Source: a virus
Direction: 5' to 3' (one strand)
DNA length: 60,043 bases
IMG/VR virus record: IMGVR_UViG_3300036818_000078
Location: 1-60,043 of that record
The notes under the pieces are model-generated. The model was not told the DNA's origin and did not search any database. It saw nothing but the letters and a program-made list of their open reading frames with translations. Shown one piece after another: positions 8,564 to 56,241 of this stretch. The stretch's first letter is position 1, and each line of letters opens with the position of its first letter. The position numbers and the translations under genes were made by a program.

Positions 8564-11560
8564 TTGTCGGTCACAGTGAGCCAACTTGCTACAAAAATAG
8601 TGATTGAAGGTGCTGTCCAAGCTAAAGCTGATTTGGTAGCTATGGATACCAATTCAAGATTGGCTCAAGCCGGGATGAAAATGCTGCAAAATGCGTCTGC
8701 GGATGCGATTAGTAGTCGGTTGTCTGCTGAGATAGACAATGCTCAAGGCGGTCTGATGGACCTTGCGTCGCGTGCCAATGCTGCTGGTCTTGATATCTCC
8801 AAGCTGTCCACTCTGCAAGCCAAAGCCGCAGAAAGTGCTGCAAGGTTGGGAGTAGCTGAGTCTCAATATGCTTCTGCTCAGCAAAAAGCCAACGAATTGA
8901 TCCAAAGCGGGACGGCTTCTGCTGAACAAATTGCGCTAGCTCAATCAAAAGCTGCTTTGTCTGCTGAAAAGGTCAATGTTGCTGAAAATGCCGTGTATGT
9001 CGCAATGGAGAAAGTCAACACGGAGTCCAATCGCCTTAACGTTGCGCTCAAAGAGAATGCAGACGCGGCTATTAGCACGGCAAGCGCAATGGATATCGTG
9101 AAGAGTGCGATGGCAAATGTCGGCGAGGGCATGCAGTCCGCTATCAATTGGATGAGCGATTTTGCTAGTAAAGCCGTTTCTTCTGCAGGCGAGTTTGTTT
9201 CTAGCTTCAATAGCGTCTCGGACGAGATGACCATGGTATCTGACAAAATGGTGACAACTGAAGCAACGGCAAAGGAGTCCTCTGGCGGTTTCCTCTCTGG
9301 ATTTAAGAATGCAGCAGGCGGTATTCTCGACTTTGGCTCCAAGGTTGGCTTTGCTCTAATGGGTGTGCAGATGGGTGTGCAGATGGTTTCCGGGGCTGTC
9401 ACTGCTGTTATAGGCCCTGCTGAAGCCTATCAAGAAGTCCTCAAACAGACAAATGACGTATTGAAGAGTACACAAGGCGCTGCTGGCATGTCAGCACAAG
9501 CGATAGCTGATCTTGCTACCTCCCTCTCTCACTCCACATTTTACTCACGTGATGCGGCACAAGCAGGCGAAAACTTGCTCTTGACCTTCACGGGAATAGG
9601 CAAGGATGTATTCCCGCTCGCAACCAAGACCATGCTCGATATGTCTAAGGCCATGGGTCAAGATGTGAAGAGCACGGCTATTCAGATGGGTAAGGCCCTA
9701 AATGATCCTGCCAAGGGGCTCACGGCCTTAACCCGTGTGGGTGTGACCTTCACAGACTCTCAGAAGAACATGATCAAGAGTATGGTAGCGGCTGGTAACA
9801 CGGCTGGTGCTCAAAAGATCATGCTGCAAGAGCTTCAAAGGGAGTTTGGTGGCTCGTCTGACGCAACGCAGACGCTGGCAGGTAAATGGGAGATACTGAA
9901 AAATAGATTTGAGGAAGTCAAAGAGAATATCGGGAATTTCCTCCTGCCAATCCTCAGCAATCTTGCAAGCTTCGTGATTGACCGCATCATGCCTGCTCTC
10001 GATGATTTTGGAAATTGGTTCTCAAACATCGCTATGCCAGTGCTGACGGCCTGGGGCCATGCTCTTCAGGTCTATGTCATCGACAAATTCAATGATCTAA
10101 AGACATTTATGGATAAAAACGTTATGCCTAAGCTAGTAGAGTTCTGGAGTTATGTCACGACAAAGATCGTACCTATTTTAATCGTTTGGGGACATAACAT
10201 ACAGGTATACGTTATAGACAAATTCAATGATTTAAAAGCATTTATTGAGAAGAACGTCATGCCTGCCATCTCTACATTTTGGGGATACGTTCAAACGAAG
10301 ATTGTACCTATTTTAGTATCGTGGGGACATAACATACAGGTCTATGTCATTGATAAGTTTAACAATCTTAAAACGTTTATAACGTCTCAAGTTCTACCTA
10401 GGTTGGCTGAATTCTGGTCATTCGTTCAAACGAAGATTGTGCCTACACTGCAGGTGTGGGGAAACAATATCAAAATATGGGTTATTGATAAACTATCCGA
10501 TCTTTGGTCGTTTATTAAGACAAAAGTTATGCCTAGCCTGTCCGATCTTTGGTCATTCATCACAACTCAGATAGTGCCTGTGCTCGTTTCGTGGGGGACC
10601 ACTATCAAAACGTGGGTTATCGACAAGCTATCTGATCTTTGGAGCTTCATCACCACAAAGGTTATGCCCAAGCTCGTAGAGTTATGGTCATTTGTTCAAA
10701 CTCAAATCGTGTCTGCCTTCAGCAATTGGGGTCAGAAGATAGCAGATGTGCAGACAAACATAAGCAACTTCAAGACGTTTATTGATACACAAGTGATACC
10801 AGTGATAAAAATGTTGTGGCAGTGGATTAATGATCATATCGTGCCTGTATTTCAGTCATTATGGGATATAGCAGTCAAAGTTAGCGGGAGCCTCGACAGT
10901 CTAAAGACAAGCACAGGCCATTTGATGGATTCATTAAAGCATCTATGGGATGTTGTCTCACCTATTCTTACTCCTGCTCTGGAATTTCTTGCATATACAG
11001 CAGGAGTGGAAGCCGGAGGCAAATTTGATGGATTGAAGCAAGCCATTGACGTTTGCGGTGATGTGCTCAATATGTTTGTAAAAAACGTGAGTATGGGAAT
11101 TGATGCATTAGCAACGCTGATTGACTGGCTTGCAACGGCTATTGGGTGGGTAAATGATTTTGACGCGGCTATCACCAATGCAGCAGCCGATTTACTGAAT
11201 ATGGTTGGCATCCAGGCATCACATGTGGATAGTAGTGGCAAGCCTATAGCCCCATCTGGTGGTACAGGCGGCGGCGCTGTCAAAAGTTTTGCCTCTGGCA
11301 TAGAAAACTTCGGAGGTGGATTTGCCTATGTACATGCAGGCGAGATCCTTACCTACCTGCCGAAGGGATCGAATGTGTATAACCCGTCCCAATCAGCAAA
11401 TATATTGAACGGAGCAGGGCTTGCCTCTACAGGATCAGGGCTTCAGCAACAGACTGTCCACATCCATAACTACATCGATGGCAAGCAAATCACCAACAAC
11501 GTCGGACCTCGCATCATCAAGTCAGCCCGCACGAACGGGCCATTGCGAGGCAAGCTATGA
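8564..11560 (+). CDS. Tape measure protein with 45-residue internal repeats
   Basis: 998 residues, the longest head-tail gene before the hub, and it sets tail length. TTG start directly after the previous stop with GGAGG ten bases upstream. Residues 1-240 are Ala/Gln-rich coiled coil; a hydrophobic stretch lies near 265-285; about residues 485-735 hold five copies of a 45-residue unit with the core WGxxIQVYVIDKF and VMPxLxEFW. The last 100 residues are Gly-rich with a beta tail (HIHNYIDGKQI). Its stop overlaps the next start (ATGA). Confidence 0.92.
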   Translation: MSVTVSQLATKIVIEGAVQAKADLVAMDTNSRLAQAGMKMLQNASADAISSRLSAEIDNAQGGLMDLASRANAAGLDISKLSTLQAKAAESAARLGVAESQYASAQQKANELIQSGTASAEQIALAQSKAALSAEKVNVAENAVYVAMEKVNTESNRLNVALKENADAAISTASAMDIVKSAMANVGEGMQSAINWMSDFASKAVSSAGEFVSSFNSVSDEMTMVSDKMVTTEATAKESSGGFLSGFKNAAGGILDFGSKVGFALMGVQMGVQMVSGAVTAVIGPAEAYQEVLKQTNDVLKSTQGAAGMSAQAIADLATSLSHSTFYSRDAAQAGENLLLTFTGIGKDVFPLATKTMLDMSKAMGQDVKSTAIQMGKALNDPAKGLTALTRVGVTFTDSQKNMIKSMVAAGNTAGAQKIMLQELQREFGGSSDATQTLAGKWEILKNRFEEVKENIGNFLLPILSNLASFVIDRIMPALDDFGNWFSNIAMPVLTAWGHALQVYVIDKFNDLKTFMDKNVMPKLVEFWSYVTTKIVPILIVWGHNIQVYVIDKFNDLKAFIEKNVMPAISTFWGYVQTKIVPILVSWGHNIQVYVIDKFNNLKTFITSQVLPRLAEFWSFVQTKIVPTLQVWGNNIKIWVIDKLSDLWSFIKTKVMPSLSDLWSFITTQIVPVLVSWGTTIKTWVIDKLSDLWSFITTKVMPKLVELWSFVQTQIVSAFSNWGQKIADVQTNISNFKTFIDTQVIPVIKMLWQWINDHIVPVFQSLWDIAVKVSGSLDSLKTSTGHLMDSLKHLWDVVSPILTPALEFLAYTAGVEAGGKFDGLKQAIDVCGDVLNMFVKNVSMGIDALATLIDWLATAIGWVNDFDAAITNAAADLLNMVGIQASHVDSSGKPIAPSGGTGGGAVKSFASGIENFGGGFAYVHAGEILTYLPKGSNVYNPSQSANILNGAGLASTGSGLQQQTVHIHNYIDGKQITNNVGPRIIKSARTNGPLRGKL

Positions 11561-42311: not shown

Positions 42312-43193
42312 ATGCAGCAGTTGATTACAGCCACCACGCCCATAGAAAAAGACAAACCCTATGTCTACAAGCTATCTTATTCTGATGGGATAGTGTTCTA
42401 CATAGGAAAAGGCACGAATGAGAGAATACATGATCATGAATGGGAAGCAAGCTGGAAAAATGAAAGGTTGCACAACCTTCATAAATCACGTGTTATTCGC
42501 AAGATATGGGAAGAAGGTGGACAAGTCATAAAGCATATTCTAGCCTATTTTGAAACAGATCAAGAGGCATTGGAATATGAAGTGTCCTTGATCTTCTTCA
42601 TGAGAGGGCATGGACATCTAGCAAACAGTACGGATGGAGGGGAAGGAATTAGGGGCCTTGTCTTCTCAGAGAAACACCGTGAAAGGTTAAGTGGAGCAGC
42701 AAAAGGGCGCACACACTCTGAAGAAGCTAAGGGAAAGGTAAGCAAAGCAAATAAGGGGCGTATTCATTCTGAAGAAACCCGCAAAAAGCTAAGTGAGCAA
42801 CGCAAGGGACGTGTATTCTCAGAAGAAACCTGTAGAAAGATAAGTGAGTCAAACAAGGGACGAAATATACCAGAGGCTCAACGCGGAAGGATAAGTGAGT
42901 CAAACAAGACTCGTATTGTATCTGAGGATACCCGCAGAAAGATGAGTGAAGCACGTAAAGGGCGTAAAGGCCATGTTCCGTCTGAGGAGTCCCGTAGGAA
43001 GATGAGCGAAGCGCACAAAAACCCGCCTGAAGACCTTCGCAAGAAATGGAGTGAACAGCGTAAAGGTCGTGTCCAATCTGAAGAAACCCGTAGGAAGAAA
43101 AGTGAGACCTTAAAAGGTCGCATTATTTCTGAAGAAACCCGTAGGAAAATGAGCGAAGCGGCTAAAAATCGCACAAACGTGAAAAATAATTAG
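42312..43193 (+). CDS. GIY-YIG homing endonuclease with NUMOD3 repeats
   Basis: 293 residues. GIY-YIG nuclease at residues 15-105: PYVYKLSY and FYIGKGTNERI carry the paired motif, and E89 lies in DQEALEYEV. Residues 125-285 contain about nine copies of the basic NUMOD3-type unit (HSEETRKKLSEQRKGR). This is the architecture of free-standing mobile endonucleases; the repeats bind DNA nonspecifically or along the site. Confidence 0.9.
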   Translation: MQQLITATTPIEKDKPYVYKLSYSDGIVFYIGKGTNERIHDHEWEASWKNERLHNLHKSRVIRKIWEEGGQVIKHILAYFETDQEALEYEVSLIFFMRGHGHLANSTDGGEGIRGLVFSEKHRERLSGAAKGRTHSEEAKGKVSKANKGRIHSEETRKKLSEQRKGRVFSEETCRKISESNKGRNIPEAQRGRISESNKTRIVSEDTRRKMSEARKGRKGHVPSEESRRKMSEAHKNPPEDLRKKWSEQRKGRVQSEETRRKKSETLKGRIISEETRRKMSEAAKNRTNVKNN

Positions 43194-51745: not shown

Positions 51746-51814
51746 TGTTCCATCAACGAATATGTCTTCAGGACATAAAGGTAGCACATCGGATGACGTA
51801 ACACGGAGGTAGCA

Positions 51815-52108
51815 ATGTCAGTTGATCAACCGGAAGACGAGCAAGTAGAACGTCCCAAGTCCAATAGAGGCTTTGCATCCATGTCTAAGGAACAGAGAAG
51901 AATTATTGCATCAAAGGGAGGCAAGGCTGCTCATGCGCTTAAAAGAGCACACCAATGGACCCATGACGAGGCGGTGGCAGCAGGAAAGAAAGGTGGTGGC
52001 AGAACATCAGTGACGTATGCAAAACGGGCTGCATTAAGGCATGGTGGCTTTACAGATGAGGAGATACAAGAAAAGCTAGACAGTCTCAACAAGGCTATAG
52101 AGGAGTAA
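51815..52108 (+). CDS. KGG-motif protein
   Basis: 97 residues. RGFASMSKEQRRIIASKGG, AAHALKRAHQWTHDEAVAAG and KKGG are the repeats of the YciG/KGG family of small basic proteins, associated with stress and nucleoid-type functions in bacteria. AGGTAG precedes the ATG. Confidence 0.75.
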   Translation: MSVDQPEDEQVERPKSNRGFASMSKEQRRIIASKGGKAAHALKRAHQWTHDEAVAAGKKGGGRTSVTYAKRAALRHGGFTDEEIQEKLDSLNKAIEE

Positions 52109-52112
52109 AGTG

Positions 52113-52481
52113 ATGAGTGAGAATATTTACCCATTTCAACATAGCCCGTATGAAGACGGTCCTTCACCTGTCAACCCGTTCAAAGATGTCCTTGACATGA
52201 TACGGGATTCACAAGTGAAGGCTGCGAGAATAGTGGAAGCTACAAAGGAGCAAGAGGCAGAGATTATAGAAGCAGCAACACAGAAAGAGGAGTTACACAA
52301 GCATGATTACCGCGTGACAGGCGGGATGTATTTCGCTATACGATACTGCATAAGATGTGGTAAGTCGTGGCGATTGCCACTACGCTATGACGACTTTGAA
52401 GATCCTCCTGTAGCAGAGTGGGAGACGATTAGCGAGCCTGTAGACTTGAGTGTGCCTATTTTACCAGACTATGAGGGATAG
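52113..52481 (+). CDS. Hypothetical protein with zinc site
   Basis: 122 residues from the ATG at 52113. Helical N-terminus, then HKHDYR and CIRCGKSW, a possible HxH-CxxC zinc-binding unit. Unknown function. Confidence 0.6.
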   Translation: MSENIYPFQHSPYEDGPSPVNPFKDVLDMIRDSQVKAARIVEATKEQEAEIIEAATQKEELHKHDYRVTGGMYFAIRYCIRCGKSWRLPLRYDDFEDPPVAEWETISEPVDLSVPILPDYEG

Positions 52482-52484
52482 ACA

Positions 52485-52742
52485 ATGAGCGAAGATATCA
52501 CACAAGATCCTGAGTATCGCAAAGGATACGAGAGAGGCATTGAAGCATACAGAAGAGAACAGTCTCTAGAGGTGAAAGGGTTTCATGCTGGCTACAACGC
52601 ACTCAAGACACCTAAGACTGTAGAGAGTAAAGCTGTCCCTGACAACTCAGAACGAGGCTGGCCGTCTCTCTCAACTCTTGAGGAGAGAATTGACGAACTT
52701 GAGAAGAGACTGAATAAGCTTGAGTGGTACACTGAGGAATAG
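52485..52742 (+). CDS. Small helical protein
   Basis: 85 residues with a C-terminal coiled coil (LEERIDELEKRLNKLE). GYERGIEAYRREQSLE and FHAGYNALK suggest helices. In the same operon as the endonuclease-like gene. Confidence 0.6.
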   Translation: MSEDITQDPEYRKGYERGIEAYRREQSLEVKGFHAGYNALKTPKTVESKAVPDNSERGWPSLSTLEERIDELEKRLNKLEWYTEE

Positions 52743-52748
52743 AGCCGT

Positions 52749-53405
52749 ATGAATGATCCATGGCAGGCTATCAGAGAGCATAATGCTCAATTGCGTCAAT
52801 CCCAATCTAGCAGATTGCAGCAAGTCTCCGATGCGCAGGACCTCAAAAAGAAAGAATTTGAATATCAGCAGGCTATCAGAGAGCAAGCGCGGCGTGAATT
52901 GGAGCAGCGTCAAGCAGAAGCAAGGCGCATTGTAGCGCAACAAGCTACAGACCGCAAAGCTCATAATGAAGCATCTCGCAATGCCCTACTGACTCAATCT
53001 GCTCAAGATTTGAGGATTGCACACCAGAGGAGTCACGACGCACGCCTCGTAGCCAAACAGAACTTACAGGAAAGGCAACAGGTTGTGAGGAATGGCAGTC
53101 CAATTGAAACCGCATTCTTTGAGGCATGGTGTGTAGCATATCCAGATATCACGCTTATTCGTCAACATCAGGTTCTCAAGTATCGACTAGACTTTGCTCA
53201 TCTAGACACAAAAATAGCTATTGAGTTAGACGGTCATAGTTTTCATAGTAGCAGGAAAGACCGCAATAAGGACTACAAGCGACAAAGAGAGATAGAAACT
53301 TTTGGTTGGTCTTTTGTTCGGTTCACAGGCAGTGAGATATTTCAAGATGTGGGTAGCTGTGTAGAGATAGTGGCAAAGCGCATTAAAGAGCATATGGCGA
53401 GGTAG
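52749..53405 (+). CDS. Coiled coil fused to a DUF559/Vsr-like PD-(D/E)XK nuclease
   Basis: 218 residues. Residues 1-110 are a charged coiled coil. Residues about 118-215 form a restriction-endonuclease-like fold: E120, LDFAHLDTKIAIELDG (D and the ExD-like IELDGHSFH), KRQREIETFGWSFVRFTGSEI. The D...ELDG pair gives the metal site expected of DUF559/Vsr-type nucleases. Nothing indicates specificity. Its stop codon lies at the start of the pentamer array. Confidence 0.8.
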   Translation: MNDPWQAIREHNAQLRQSQSSRLQQVSDAQDLKKKEFEYQQAIREQARRELEQRQAEARRIVAQQATDRKAHNEASRNALLTQSAQDLRIAHQRSHDARLVAKQNLQERQQVVRNGSPIETAFFEAWCVAYPDITLIRQHQVLKYRLDFAHLDTKIAIELDGHSFHSSRKDRNKDYKRQREIETFGWSFVRFTGSEIFQDVGSCVEIVAKRIKEHMAR

Positions 53406-53900
53406 GCATGGTCAGGTGAGGTAGCGTCAGGTTCGGTCTGGTTAGGTTTGGAGCAGCATGGTCAAGCTAGGTTTGGCAAGGTAGGCGGGGCACGGTAGGC
53501 ATGGTGTGGATTGGTACGTTGTTGCGGGGTGATGCGTGGCTTGTCTAGGTTAGGTATTGCAAGGTTGGAGCGGTGTGCCAAGGTGAGGAAAGGTCAGGAC
53601 TGGTGAGGTTTGGTACGGCGTGTCTGGGTGAGGATTGGCATGGTTGGTGAGGTTGGGTTGGGCTAGGCAGTGCGCGGTGATGCTAGGCCCGGTAGCGCAT
53701 GGCCCGGTAGCGCATGGCAAGGTTCGGACTGGTTCGGTGCGATTCGGTTCGGCATGGTCCTGTAAGGCATGGTTGGCAAGGTATCGTATAGCGCGGTACG
53801 GTTCGGTATTGCAAGGTATGGCGCAGCATGGTAGGCAAGGGCAGGCACGGTAAGGTTGGGCGGGGCACGGACAGGTATGGCAAGGTACGGTATGGCAAGG
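53401..53900 (+). repeat. Pentanucleotide array (about 100 tandem G(T/C)NNG units)
   Basis: For 500 bases the plus strand is built of 5-base units with GG at each junction, e.g. GGTAGGCATGGTCAGGTGAG. Phase shifts occur near 53485, 53580, 53640 and 53775. A 15-base unit GGCCCGGTAGCGCAT is repeated exactly at 53686 and 53701. Open frames here on both strands are by-products of the composition. Unique in this genome; function unknown (see findings). Confidence 0.95.
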
Positions 53901-53941
53901 TTTTATTTGTTTTCGATTAGTTCAAGGAGAGGTCTAACAGC

Positions 53942-54493
53942 ATGATACGTTCATTTCAGGTTCAAATCACAGGGATTACACCAGTGATCATTAATCGCTT
54001 TCATGAAGAGGCTGCTGAAGAGGCAACTAGTAGTATGAGGTCAGCACGCAAAGAGCGACCAGCCCCACAAGAAGACGCGGCTAGCCGTCTCTATCAGAAT
54101 GGGAATGGCCCGTTCTTGCCTGCTGAGAACGTCAGACAAAGCATCATTGAAGCTGCAAAACGTTTCAAGCTTGGGAGACGGGCTGCTACAACCGACGTAG
54201 CTGCAGCGGTATTCATATCACCTTTTGAGCTTCCACTAGAAGGTGAGTGGCATGTGGACAGTAGAGCAGTCGTTATTCCTGCAACGGGTGGGCGTATCTT
54301 GCGACACAGGCCGATGTTCGATGAATGGAGTGTCAAATTTCAGCTCCAAATTGACACAGACACAGGCATTGATGAGAAGCTTATAAAAGAGGTATTAGGG
54401 AGTGCAGGAAAGCTAGTAGGAATAGGTGATTTTAGACCAGCTCGCAAGGGACCGTATGGCAGATTTAGTATAGACTCTTGGGAGCAAGAGTAG
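53942..54493 (+). CDS. Conserved phage protein with RAMP/Cas7-like features
   Basis: 183 residues, AAGGAGAGG before the ATG. Beta-alpha start FQVQITGITPVIINRF, then LPAENVRQSIIEAAKRFK, HVDSRAVVIPATGGRI, RHRPMFDEWSVKFQLQI and a Gly-rich end GKLVGIGDFRPARKGPYG. The opening strand and closing G-rich loop recall RAMP-type RNA-recognition folds. Homologues of this kind occur in many phages, usually without assigned function; a nucleic-acid-binding role is inferred. Confidence 0.65.
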   Translation: MIRSFQVQITGITPVIINRFHEEAAEEATSSMRSARKERPAPQEDAASRLYQNGNGPFLPAENVRQSIIEAAKRFKLGRRAATTDVAAAVFISPFELPLEGEWHVDSRAVVIPATGGRILRHRPMFDEWSVKFQLQIDTDTGIDEKLIKEVLGSAGKLVGIGDFRPARKGPYGRFSIDSWEQE

Positions 54494-54495
54494 AG

Positions 54496-54783
54496 ATGAA
54501 ACGCTTTGGGCTACCCACATACCCAATAGCTGATGGTATGCTCGTCAGGAAAAGACCACCTGACGAGCTACAGTGGCTTATAGACCACGGTTTCTTCGTG
54601 TCCTGGAGTTATCATCACCTCATTGTAAAGCTTCCTAATGGGATTTACAGGCTTTACCGCAACACGCAGCCAGTAGGACAAATTGAAGCGGAAGCAGCCA
54701 CGCTTGACGAACTGATACGGGACAACAGCGTGCCGATTGCGATGTACCAATGGCATGATGACAGAGGTGAGGATTTGGCATGA
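54496..54783 (+). CDS. Hypothetical protein
   Basis: 95 residues from the ATG at 54496. Mixed alpha/beta (HHLIVKLPNGIYRLYRNTQP). Overlaps the next gene (ATGA). Not recognised. Confidence 0.55.
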   Translation: MKRFGLPTYPIADGMLVRKRPPDELQWLIDHGFFVSWSYHHLIVKLPNGIYRLYRNTQPVGQIEAEAATLDELIRDNSVPIAMYQWHDDRGEDLA

Positions 54784-54905
54784 GTGAGCCTGTAAAAGAC
54801 GCCTTCCTCATCCTCTTCATCATTATCCTCACTGCCGTGTTTATCTACCTTATCATGATGTCAGGTGCTCTAGAGCCATATGATGATGAAAGTGAGAATG
54901 AATGA
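54780..54905 (+). CDS. 41-residue membrane protein
   Basis: One transmembrane helix (AFLILFIIILTAVFIYLIMM) and an acidic end (EPYDDESENE). Start overlaps the previous stop by four bases. Confidence 0.6.
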   Translation: MSEPVKDAFLILFIIILTAVFIYLIMMSGALEPYDDESENE

Positions 54906-55248: not shown

Positions 55249-55278
55249 TTGACAAACTGCTGAGATGTGAGCTATACT
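55249..55278 (+). promoter_or_regulatory. Integrase promoter
   Basis: TTGACA (55249-55254), 18 bases, TATACT (55273-55278), 46 bases before the start codon. The integrase thus has independent transcription. Confidence 0.8.
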
Positions 55279-55323
55279 GATGTCTGTAAATTTGCGTTTA
55301 ACGACACCAGAAAGGGAAAAGCT

Positions 55324-56241
55324 ATGTCTCAATCTCTCGACACTACGGATTTCTCAGCCTCTTTGCAAAACGCTACAGGTCAGTTATCAAAGAGATCTAA
55401 GCGCATTTATGAGAATGATGCTAAGGTCTTTGCAAAATGGCTTCTTGATTATAATCTAATACCTGATGTGTTTAGCCGTTCTCATGCCATTGCTTACAGA
55501 GCATACCTAGAAGAAACTTACCAGAAAGCAACGGCTAAACGGATGTTATCGGTAGCACGTCGTATCTTTGCAGAGCAGGTTATGAGTGGCAAGAGATCTG
55601 ATAATCCATTCCAGGATGTAAAAGGGTTCACCGTTGCAAACGAGACGACACATACAGCATTGACGAAAGAGCAAGCTAAAGAATTGCTAGATGCTATTGA
55701 CCAATCAACGCTTATTGGGAAACGTGATTATGCTTTAGTCTCTCTTTTGCTACGAACTGGGATCAGGCGTTCTGAATGTGCTGCTCTCGACATTGGGGAT
55801 TTGCAGAATGAGCAGGGCCATACTATAGCAGTCATCCGTCATGGCAAAGGAGACAAAAGGCGCATTATCAAAATCCCTGTTGATGTCTTTCGATCAATCC
55901 AAGTATATATCAAAAGCGTTGATAGAGTGCGTGATCCATTAGATGCTCCGCTCTTTGCTGGTTTTGATCGGTGGCTCCGCTCTACTGGTGAACGCATTAG
56001 CGATAAGCTGATAGAGCGAACGGTCAAATATTATGGCAGGCTCATAGGGGTACCGAAGCTTACACCGCATGGTCTGCGAGCAACATTCATCACGTTGGCT
56101 CTTGAGGCAGGTGCTACCCTCTTGCAAGTCCAATATGCAGCAGGCCATGATGACCCGCGTACTACAGAGCGCTATCAAACGCGAAAGCTGAATTTGGATG
56201 ATAATGCAGTAGACAAGCTAGCGTTCTTGAGCAGGGAGTGA
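55324..56241 (+). CDS. int: Tyrosine recombinase (integrase)
   Basis: 305 residues from the ATG at 55324 (AGAAAGGG upstream). N-terminal SAM-like core-binding domain (about 10-100), then a catalytic domain with R148 (TGIRRSE), K175 (HGKGDKRR), H249 and R252 (TPHGLRATF), H275 (AAGHDD) and nucleophile Y284 (TERYQTRK). All active-site residues are present. Lacks a long arm-binding domain, similar to XerC/D-like phage integrases. A tRNA-like element probably containing attP lies 500 bases downstream. Confidence 0.95.
   Translation: MSQSLDTTDFSASLQNATGQLSKRSKRIYENDAKVFAKWLLDYNLIPDVFSRSHAIAYRAYLEETYQKATAKRMLSVARRIFAEQVMSGKRSDNPFQDVKGFTVANETTHTALTKEQAKELLDAIDQSTLIGKRDYALVSLLLRTGIRRSECAALDIGDLQNEQGHTIAVIRHGKGDKRRIIKIPVDVFRSIQVYIKSVDRVRDPLDAPLFAGFDRWLRSTGERISDKLIERTVKYYGRLIGVPKLTPHGLRATFITLALEAGATLLQVQYAAGHDDPRTTERYQTRKLNLDDNAVDKLAFLSRE

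Follow-up and report, generated by a model that had tools for sequence, protein, structure and literature searches.

The main text of a 2026 preprint (PMC13142463) describes VIPR, for Viral Interference Programmable Repeat, as a system in which the gene for Vipr, an early-branching RAMP, is flanked by vrRNAs of 9–16 GGY/NN repeats, and in which double-stranded DNA is read through the NN pairs, each pair being separated from the next by one skipped base of the target. VIPR represses competing phages and has accessory vap genes. Seven types are distinguished there, some with predicted nucleases, 'staggered arrays with overlapping vrRNAs' are found among the loci, and the system is proposed as older than CRISPR, the experiments in that account having been made on members other than the phage studied here.

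We compared with these systems a locus in the window, a stretch of 60,043 nucleotides of viral DNA. The whole is best explained as a VIPR locus, carried by a temperate-type soil phage, whose pentamer array provides RNA guides for Vipr, and we put the probability of this reading at roughly 93%. The kind of system is already known, and what is new is the member and possibly its punctuation; the locus would extend VIPR to a clade of soil phages, adding a nuclease neighbour and a long array with several guides. A sequence-only reading of the same DNA had named no known element of this sort, a statement that can now be replaced: the array is genuine, looks functional, and can be named as a set of vrRNA guides belonging to VIPR (PMC13142463). 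The main features of the locus are:

52110..54493, plus strand: exchangeable cassette of two small ORFs, nuclease, array and vipr, replaced in the sister phage G006
52749..53405, plus strand: PD-(D/E)XK nuclease (MTES_1575/DUF559, from Pfam matches), 218 aa, candidate vap
53401..53903, plus strand: VIPR guide (vrRNA) array, ~100 GGYNN units with seven 4-base units
53942..54493, plus strand: vipr gene, RAMP/Cas7-like, 183 aa (PDB, Foldseek and PHROG matches)

With the type II loci of Escherichia phage SUSP1 and a Pseudomonas fulva prophage, as presented in the main text of the preprint (PMC13142463), the window locus has in common a Vipr homolog, same-strand flanking intergenic GGY/NN repeats, carriage by a phage and a minimal locus. 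SUSP1-type loci contain four separate vrRNAs of ~100 nt with 3' tails, whereas the window contains one continuous, punctuated array of ~100 units and is without the invariant structured 3' tail that each vrRNA has in SUSP1-like type II loci. It differs from SUSP1 further in that a nuclease gene adjoins the array and that its Vipr is only distantly related. The DUF559/MTES_1575 nuclease fits the vap description given in the same text for the nuclease- or helicase-bearing types III–V, and the continuous multi-guide array may be of the 'staggered' kind (PMC13142463). For types III and V the same text describes an enrichment in host defence islands; the window locus, by contrast, lies in a phage.

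The pentamer array

From 53401 to 53903 the plus strand of the window is filled by about 100 GGYNN pentamers (Y = C/T), the same consensus that the sequence-only reading had written in another register as G(T/C)NNG. The array with a 5-base period that it placed here is borne out by autocorrelation, the check it had proposed: lag-5 identity amounts to 0.48 (its harmonics at lags 10 and 15 reach 0.50), compared with 0.295±0.019 in shuffles (n=500, maximum 0.36, so that all are exceeded) and with 0.355 for the highest value of any 200-base stretch of the window outside the array. Successive GG dinucleotides are spaced exactly 5 bases apart in 50/92 cases and 10 apart in 15/92. The pentamer columns are occupied by G in 84%, G in 95% and C/T in 91% of units, followed by two free positions, in line with the earlier statement that the N positions vary while the repeat is kept, and the exact 15-base duplication reported at 53686/53701 is real. 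As had also been noted, the array starts inside the stop codon of the upstream nuclease gene. A cyclic five-state model applied to both strands of the window returned the array at 53401–53903 alone with no second array, and returned no array from the shuffled window.

Between this array and those of related phages GGY is conserved and the NN letters are hypervariable; a DNA similarity search with the array in the phage collection gave no match. An Rfam scan of 52.0–55.3 kb was also empty, so there is no hammerhead or other known RNA in that region, and a promoter and terminator scan at the locus gave nothing exceeding shuffles. As for features of class 1 CRISPR-Cas, a repeat-spacer array is absent, and none of the ten neighbouring ORFs tested matched a cas family.

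Vipr and its nuclease neighbour

The ORF at 53942–54493 belongs to phrog_4652, whose function is unannotated. When its sequence was searched against the PDB, the single match was entry 36pp, 'SUSP1 Vipr protein' (phmmer, E=2.3e-9), and a profile built from 84 sequences returned the same entry at E=2.2e-43, with the second match at E=0.4. An AlphaFold model calculated from the 84-sequence alignment reached a pLDDT of 94.4 and a pTM of 0.88; an earlier model from 5 sequences (pLDDT 57) was discarded. The best 50 Foldseek matches listed for the final model come without exception from CRISPR effector complexes and are of the Cas7/RAMP kind (Csm3/Cas7-type), with E-values down to 1.4e-7. The sequence-only reading had described this protein as RAMP-like, and it proves to be a Vipr homolog with a Cas7-family fold. 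The fold is common to Csm3, Cmr4, type VII Cas7 and Cas7-11 (Foldseek 1e-7 to 1e-5), and since the TM scores are about 0.5 it is shared without close similarity; identity to these Cas7-family RAMPs is 8–15%, and the window neighbourhood is without CRISPR repeats or other cas genes. According to the model in the main text of the preprint, Cas7 RAMPs and Vipr alike form an oligomer that reads a guide RNA with periodic interruptions (PMC13142463). The homology to Vipr and the match of the model to the Cas7 family together identify array plus gene as a VIPR locus. PADLOC gave no match for Vipr and weak partial matches for the nuclease.

The protein encoded directly upstream of the array, which had been called PD-(D/E)XK-like, matches Pfam PF18741 (1.2e-13) and PF04480 (5.3e-12). 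The same nuclease family occurs directly beside the array in the related loci L009 and L010; in L072 its gene separates vipr from the array. A D-F-A and an E-x-D-G motif are invariant in the four nucleases, and catalytic-type residues are kept. The protein is the natural candidate for the accessory (vap) nuclease of the locus, and it may act together with Vipr.

Linkage of arrays to vipr and exchange of the cassette

IMG/VR was scanned by the repeat pattern alone, blind to vipr, and arrays were then confirmed under the five-state model. This search of other genomes, which the sequence-only reading had suggested, yielded at least 120 stretches and, with them, at least 109 array-bearing viral loci. 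Among the matches listed, a Vipr homolog lies within 2 kb of the array in 85/109 loci, and 84/85 of these linked vipr genes are on the strand of the array; of the 24/109 loci where Vipr went undetected, some are short or break off close to the array, and divergent Viprs may have been missed. An array or a Vipr was present in 0/96 control loci fetched for unrelated patterns. Repeats of the GGYNN kind also flank Vipr homologs in wV8, Medea1, LittleE, LESphi2, MakoManhole and DSL-LC04, with tail-like non-repeat sequence after the arrays in wV8. Membership in VIPR is supported jointly by the protein, by the repeat and by the conserved linkage of the two.

In wV8 (L317), publicly annotated 'DR_4' repeats lie at the vrRNA-like repeats around gene 95, which is vipr; together with phrog_4652 these are earlier annotations of the vipr family and its flanking repeats, given with no function.

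The sequence-only reading had proposed a comparison with relatives, and there the outcome is divided. Three related loci keep it: the Viprs of L009, L010 and L011 are 66–70% identical to that of the window, and each gene has an array beside it with NN letters quite different from those of the window, downstream of vipr in L011 and on both sides of it in L009 and L010, the window array being upstream. The sister phage G006 (genome of 60,021 bases, terminase 97% identical) has neither vipr nor array. Between flanks shared by the two phages (window 51805–52120 and 54497–54785) G006 carries 1.26 kb of other genes compared with 2.4 kb in the window, which makes the locus an exchangeable cassette. 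That sister phages differ in this way at one and the same site shows that VIPR behaves as an accessory module.

At L232:4750-6020 the place of the cassette in G006 holds an apparent PD-(D/E)XK nuclease (IEARWAVFFD...PDFWLP...WIEIKG) that by eye resembles the product of L011 ORF 1729–2304. The contig of another related phage (G011) breaks off within a GGYNN array at L246:16395-16603, and vipr could lie beyond its end.

The window phage encodes an integrase (55267–56241), head and tail proteins and a terminase; the integrase, and relatives from soil-type records, point to a temperate-type soil phage. Genome contigs scanned for a host contained only distant homologs, at 23–37% identity.

Putative delimiters and guide modules

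The phase slips mentioned by the sequence-only reading are present and all of one kind: each is a 4-base unit, GGTA or GGTT, with GG immediately after it. There are seven of them, mostly 59–79 bases apart. In the six units that precede delimiters within the array the third and fourth bases are always C and A (hypergeometric p=9e-5), and a test for regular delimiter spacing in the window array alone gave p=0.07. The slips look like delimiters between guides, not noise, and divide the array as follows:

53401..53404, plus strand: first delimiter, GGTA, sharing bases with the stop codon of the nuclease gene (TAG at 53403–53405)
53405..53483, plus strand: guide module 1, 15 units and GGTA
53484..53497, plus strand: short module, 2 units and GGTA, probably a remnant
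53498..53566, plus strand: guide module 2, 13 units and GGTT
53567..53645, plus strand: guide module 3, 15 units and GGTT
53646..53774, plus strand: double-length module 4, 25 units and GGTT, containing the 15-base duplication
53775..53833, plus strand: guide module 5, 11 units and GGTA
53834..53903, plus strand: guide module 6, 14 units, with the end GGCAAGGTTTT

The NN letters of module 1 read AT CA GA AG CA TC CT TA TT GC AT CA TA TT AA. The modules abut with no intervening sequence, and no conserved 3' tail was seen. If the delimiters are guide ends, modules of 15, 13, 15, 11 and 14 units fit a guide length of 9–16 repeats, and module 4 may represent a pair of guides that have lost the delimiter between them at GGCAAGGTTCGG. 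We infer that the 4-base units are guide boundaries, either as the end of one filament and the start of the next or as a processing site; in breaking the 5-base register they would mark guide ends, and the array would therefore hold about six or seven guides.

Long arrays of unrelated VIPR loci likewise contain one 4-base unit about every 44–64 bases. In L021, L023, L052, L070, L082, L110 and L126 the median spacing is 44–59 bases, and its coefficient of variation is 0.10–0.37, where random placement would give about 0.85. Together with L120 and the window, these seven give a set of 115 4-base units, of which 85 are GGCA, with the consensus GGYA/GG (the slash marks the unit junction). The last base of the pooled units is A in 93%, whereas the units before and after them have A at the corresponding position in only about half of cases. 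The median pooled module is 9 units, which agrees with the 9–16 repeats per vrRNA reported in the preprint (PMC13142463). In the clade member L011 the slips have the form GGAN, then mostly GC, and lie 45–104 bases apart. Delimiter units have no description in the main text of the preprint (PMC13142463). Such a short unit would offer a simple rule for cutting arrays into single guides and decoding them, a step required for finding their natural targets.

Another delimiter, GGCTAA/TGGGT, was observed at L124:4599-5048, where a two-base shortening recurs every 53–68 bases. The delimiter pattern was not seen in the long arrays L031 and L076. The 713-base array beside the vipr gene at L031:6300-7012 has zero phase slips, and is either one huge guide or a series with delimiters that keep the register.

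Target search and codon phase

When 156 arrays were decoded with skips of 0–3 and compared with 2.9 Mb of DNA, only chance-level matches were obtained, as judged from reversed-order controls. One high-scoring skip-3 match was rejected as the end of an array cut by the locus border. The 574 units of the clade gave no excess over shuffled guides in 3.0 Mb of mostly phage DNA, and four decoded guides (modules 3, 2, 1 and 6), scanned through IMG/VR for exact matches to 8–9 NN, gave chance-like matches only.

Four mutually homologous viral contigs (L335, L338, L341 and L343) match the first 10 NN of module 6, starting at its first unit. The match is in codon phase, over the peptide KHTKCGTHMK, and the next three units fail. 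As the contigs are homologous it counts as one event, at about chance level by estimate over the hits examined in the four scans, and we regard it as a candidate target without claiming it.

In 4/4 clade phages the NN letters fit codon positions 1–2 best of the three phases, as would be expected if the skipped target base were the wobble base (PMC13142463). The scores, in log units, are 6.5, 5.6 and -10.8 for the window, where the margin over phase 2–3 is small (6.5 vs 5.6), and 12.4, -7.6 and -45.0 for L011. This test mildly favours the reading of the NN letters as guides and is no substitute for a target.

Proposed mechanism and alternative explanations

By analogy with related systems (PMC13142463), the array would be transcribed as plus-strand RNA, and the free bases of one module would jointly pair with DNA, one base being skipped between pairs. 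Vipr would coat the RNA, presumably with one subunit to each pentamer, holding on to GGY and leaving the two free bases exposed. The resulting guide complex would find and repress a competing element, which the adjacent nuclease might allow it to cut, and the 4-base units would separate successive guides. In its most specific form, which we advance tentatively at a little under even odds, the proposal is that the guide bank is a continuous pentamer text in which GGYA/GG punctuation ends and starts Vipr filaments, with many guides per transcript, and that in this clade the bank and the PD-(D/E)XK nuclease form a phage-borne, target-cutting VIPR.

Among the roles listed by the sequence-only reading, that of a structured noncoding RNA stands, and those of G-quadruplex, origin, packaging site, recombination hotspot and selfish expansion find no support: none of them accounts for the fact that unrelated phages have the array linked to vipr in a fixed strand orientation, or for the third-position pyrimidine. 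A DNA element of two-tetrad G-quadruplexes or i-motifs, serving as an origin, packaging or recombination site, is compatible with a GG every 5 bases; it leaves the pyrimidine after GG (91%), the delimiters and the same-strand vipr in 84/109 array loci (among the matches listed) without explanation, G006 does without the array, and we consider it very improbable. Neutral or selfish growth of the array through slippage has less still to recommend it. The exact 15-base duplication demonstrates that local duplication does occur, but slippage predicts near-identical neighbouring units where the NN letters are instead hypervariable, and GGY is retained across phages; the tracking of vipr by arrays in a blind search refutes it in practice.

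The remaining alternative accepts a VIPR locus and makes the array autoregulatory, Vipr binding the leader of its own mRNA and so limiting its expression, with no guiding to DNA. In its favour, array and vipr share a strand, the array comes immediately before the gene, and no terminator was found in between; nor was a DNA target found among the 3.0 Mb of mostly phage DNA. In related loci, however, the array follows vipr (L011) or flanks it on either side (L009, L010), a leader would need neither hypervariable NN letters nor regular delimiters, and the related systems target DNA (PMC13142463), so that we judge autoregulation improbable, if less so than the two preceding explanations, and retain the reading of the array as a set of guides for Vipr.

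Other repeats in the window

Two further regions of repeated sequence were observed in the window. At 42834–43147 a homing-endonuclease-like gene (phrog_314) contains two sets of 51-base tandem repeats, possibly repeated DNA-binding modules, and at 10456–10715 there is a tandem duplication inside the tape-measure gene, of 135 bases and 74% alike.
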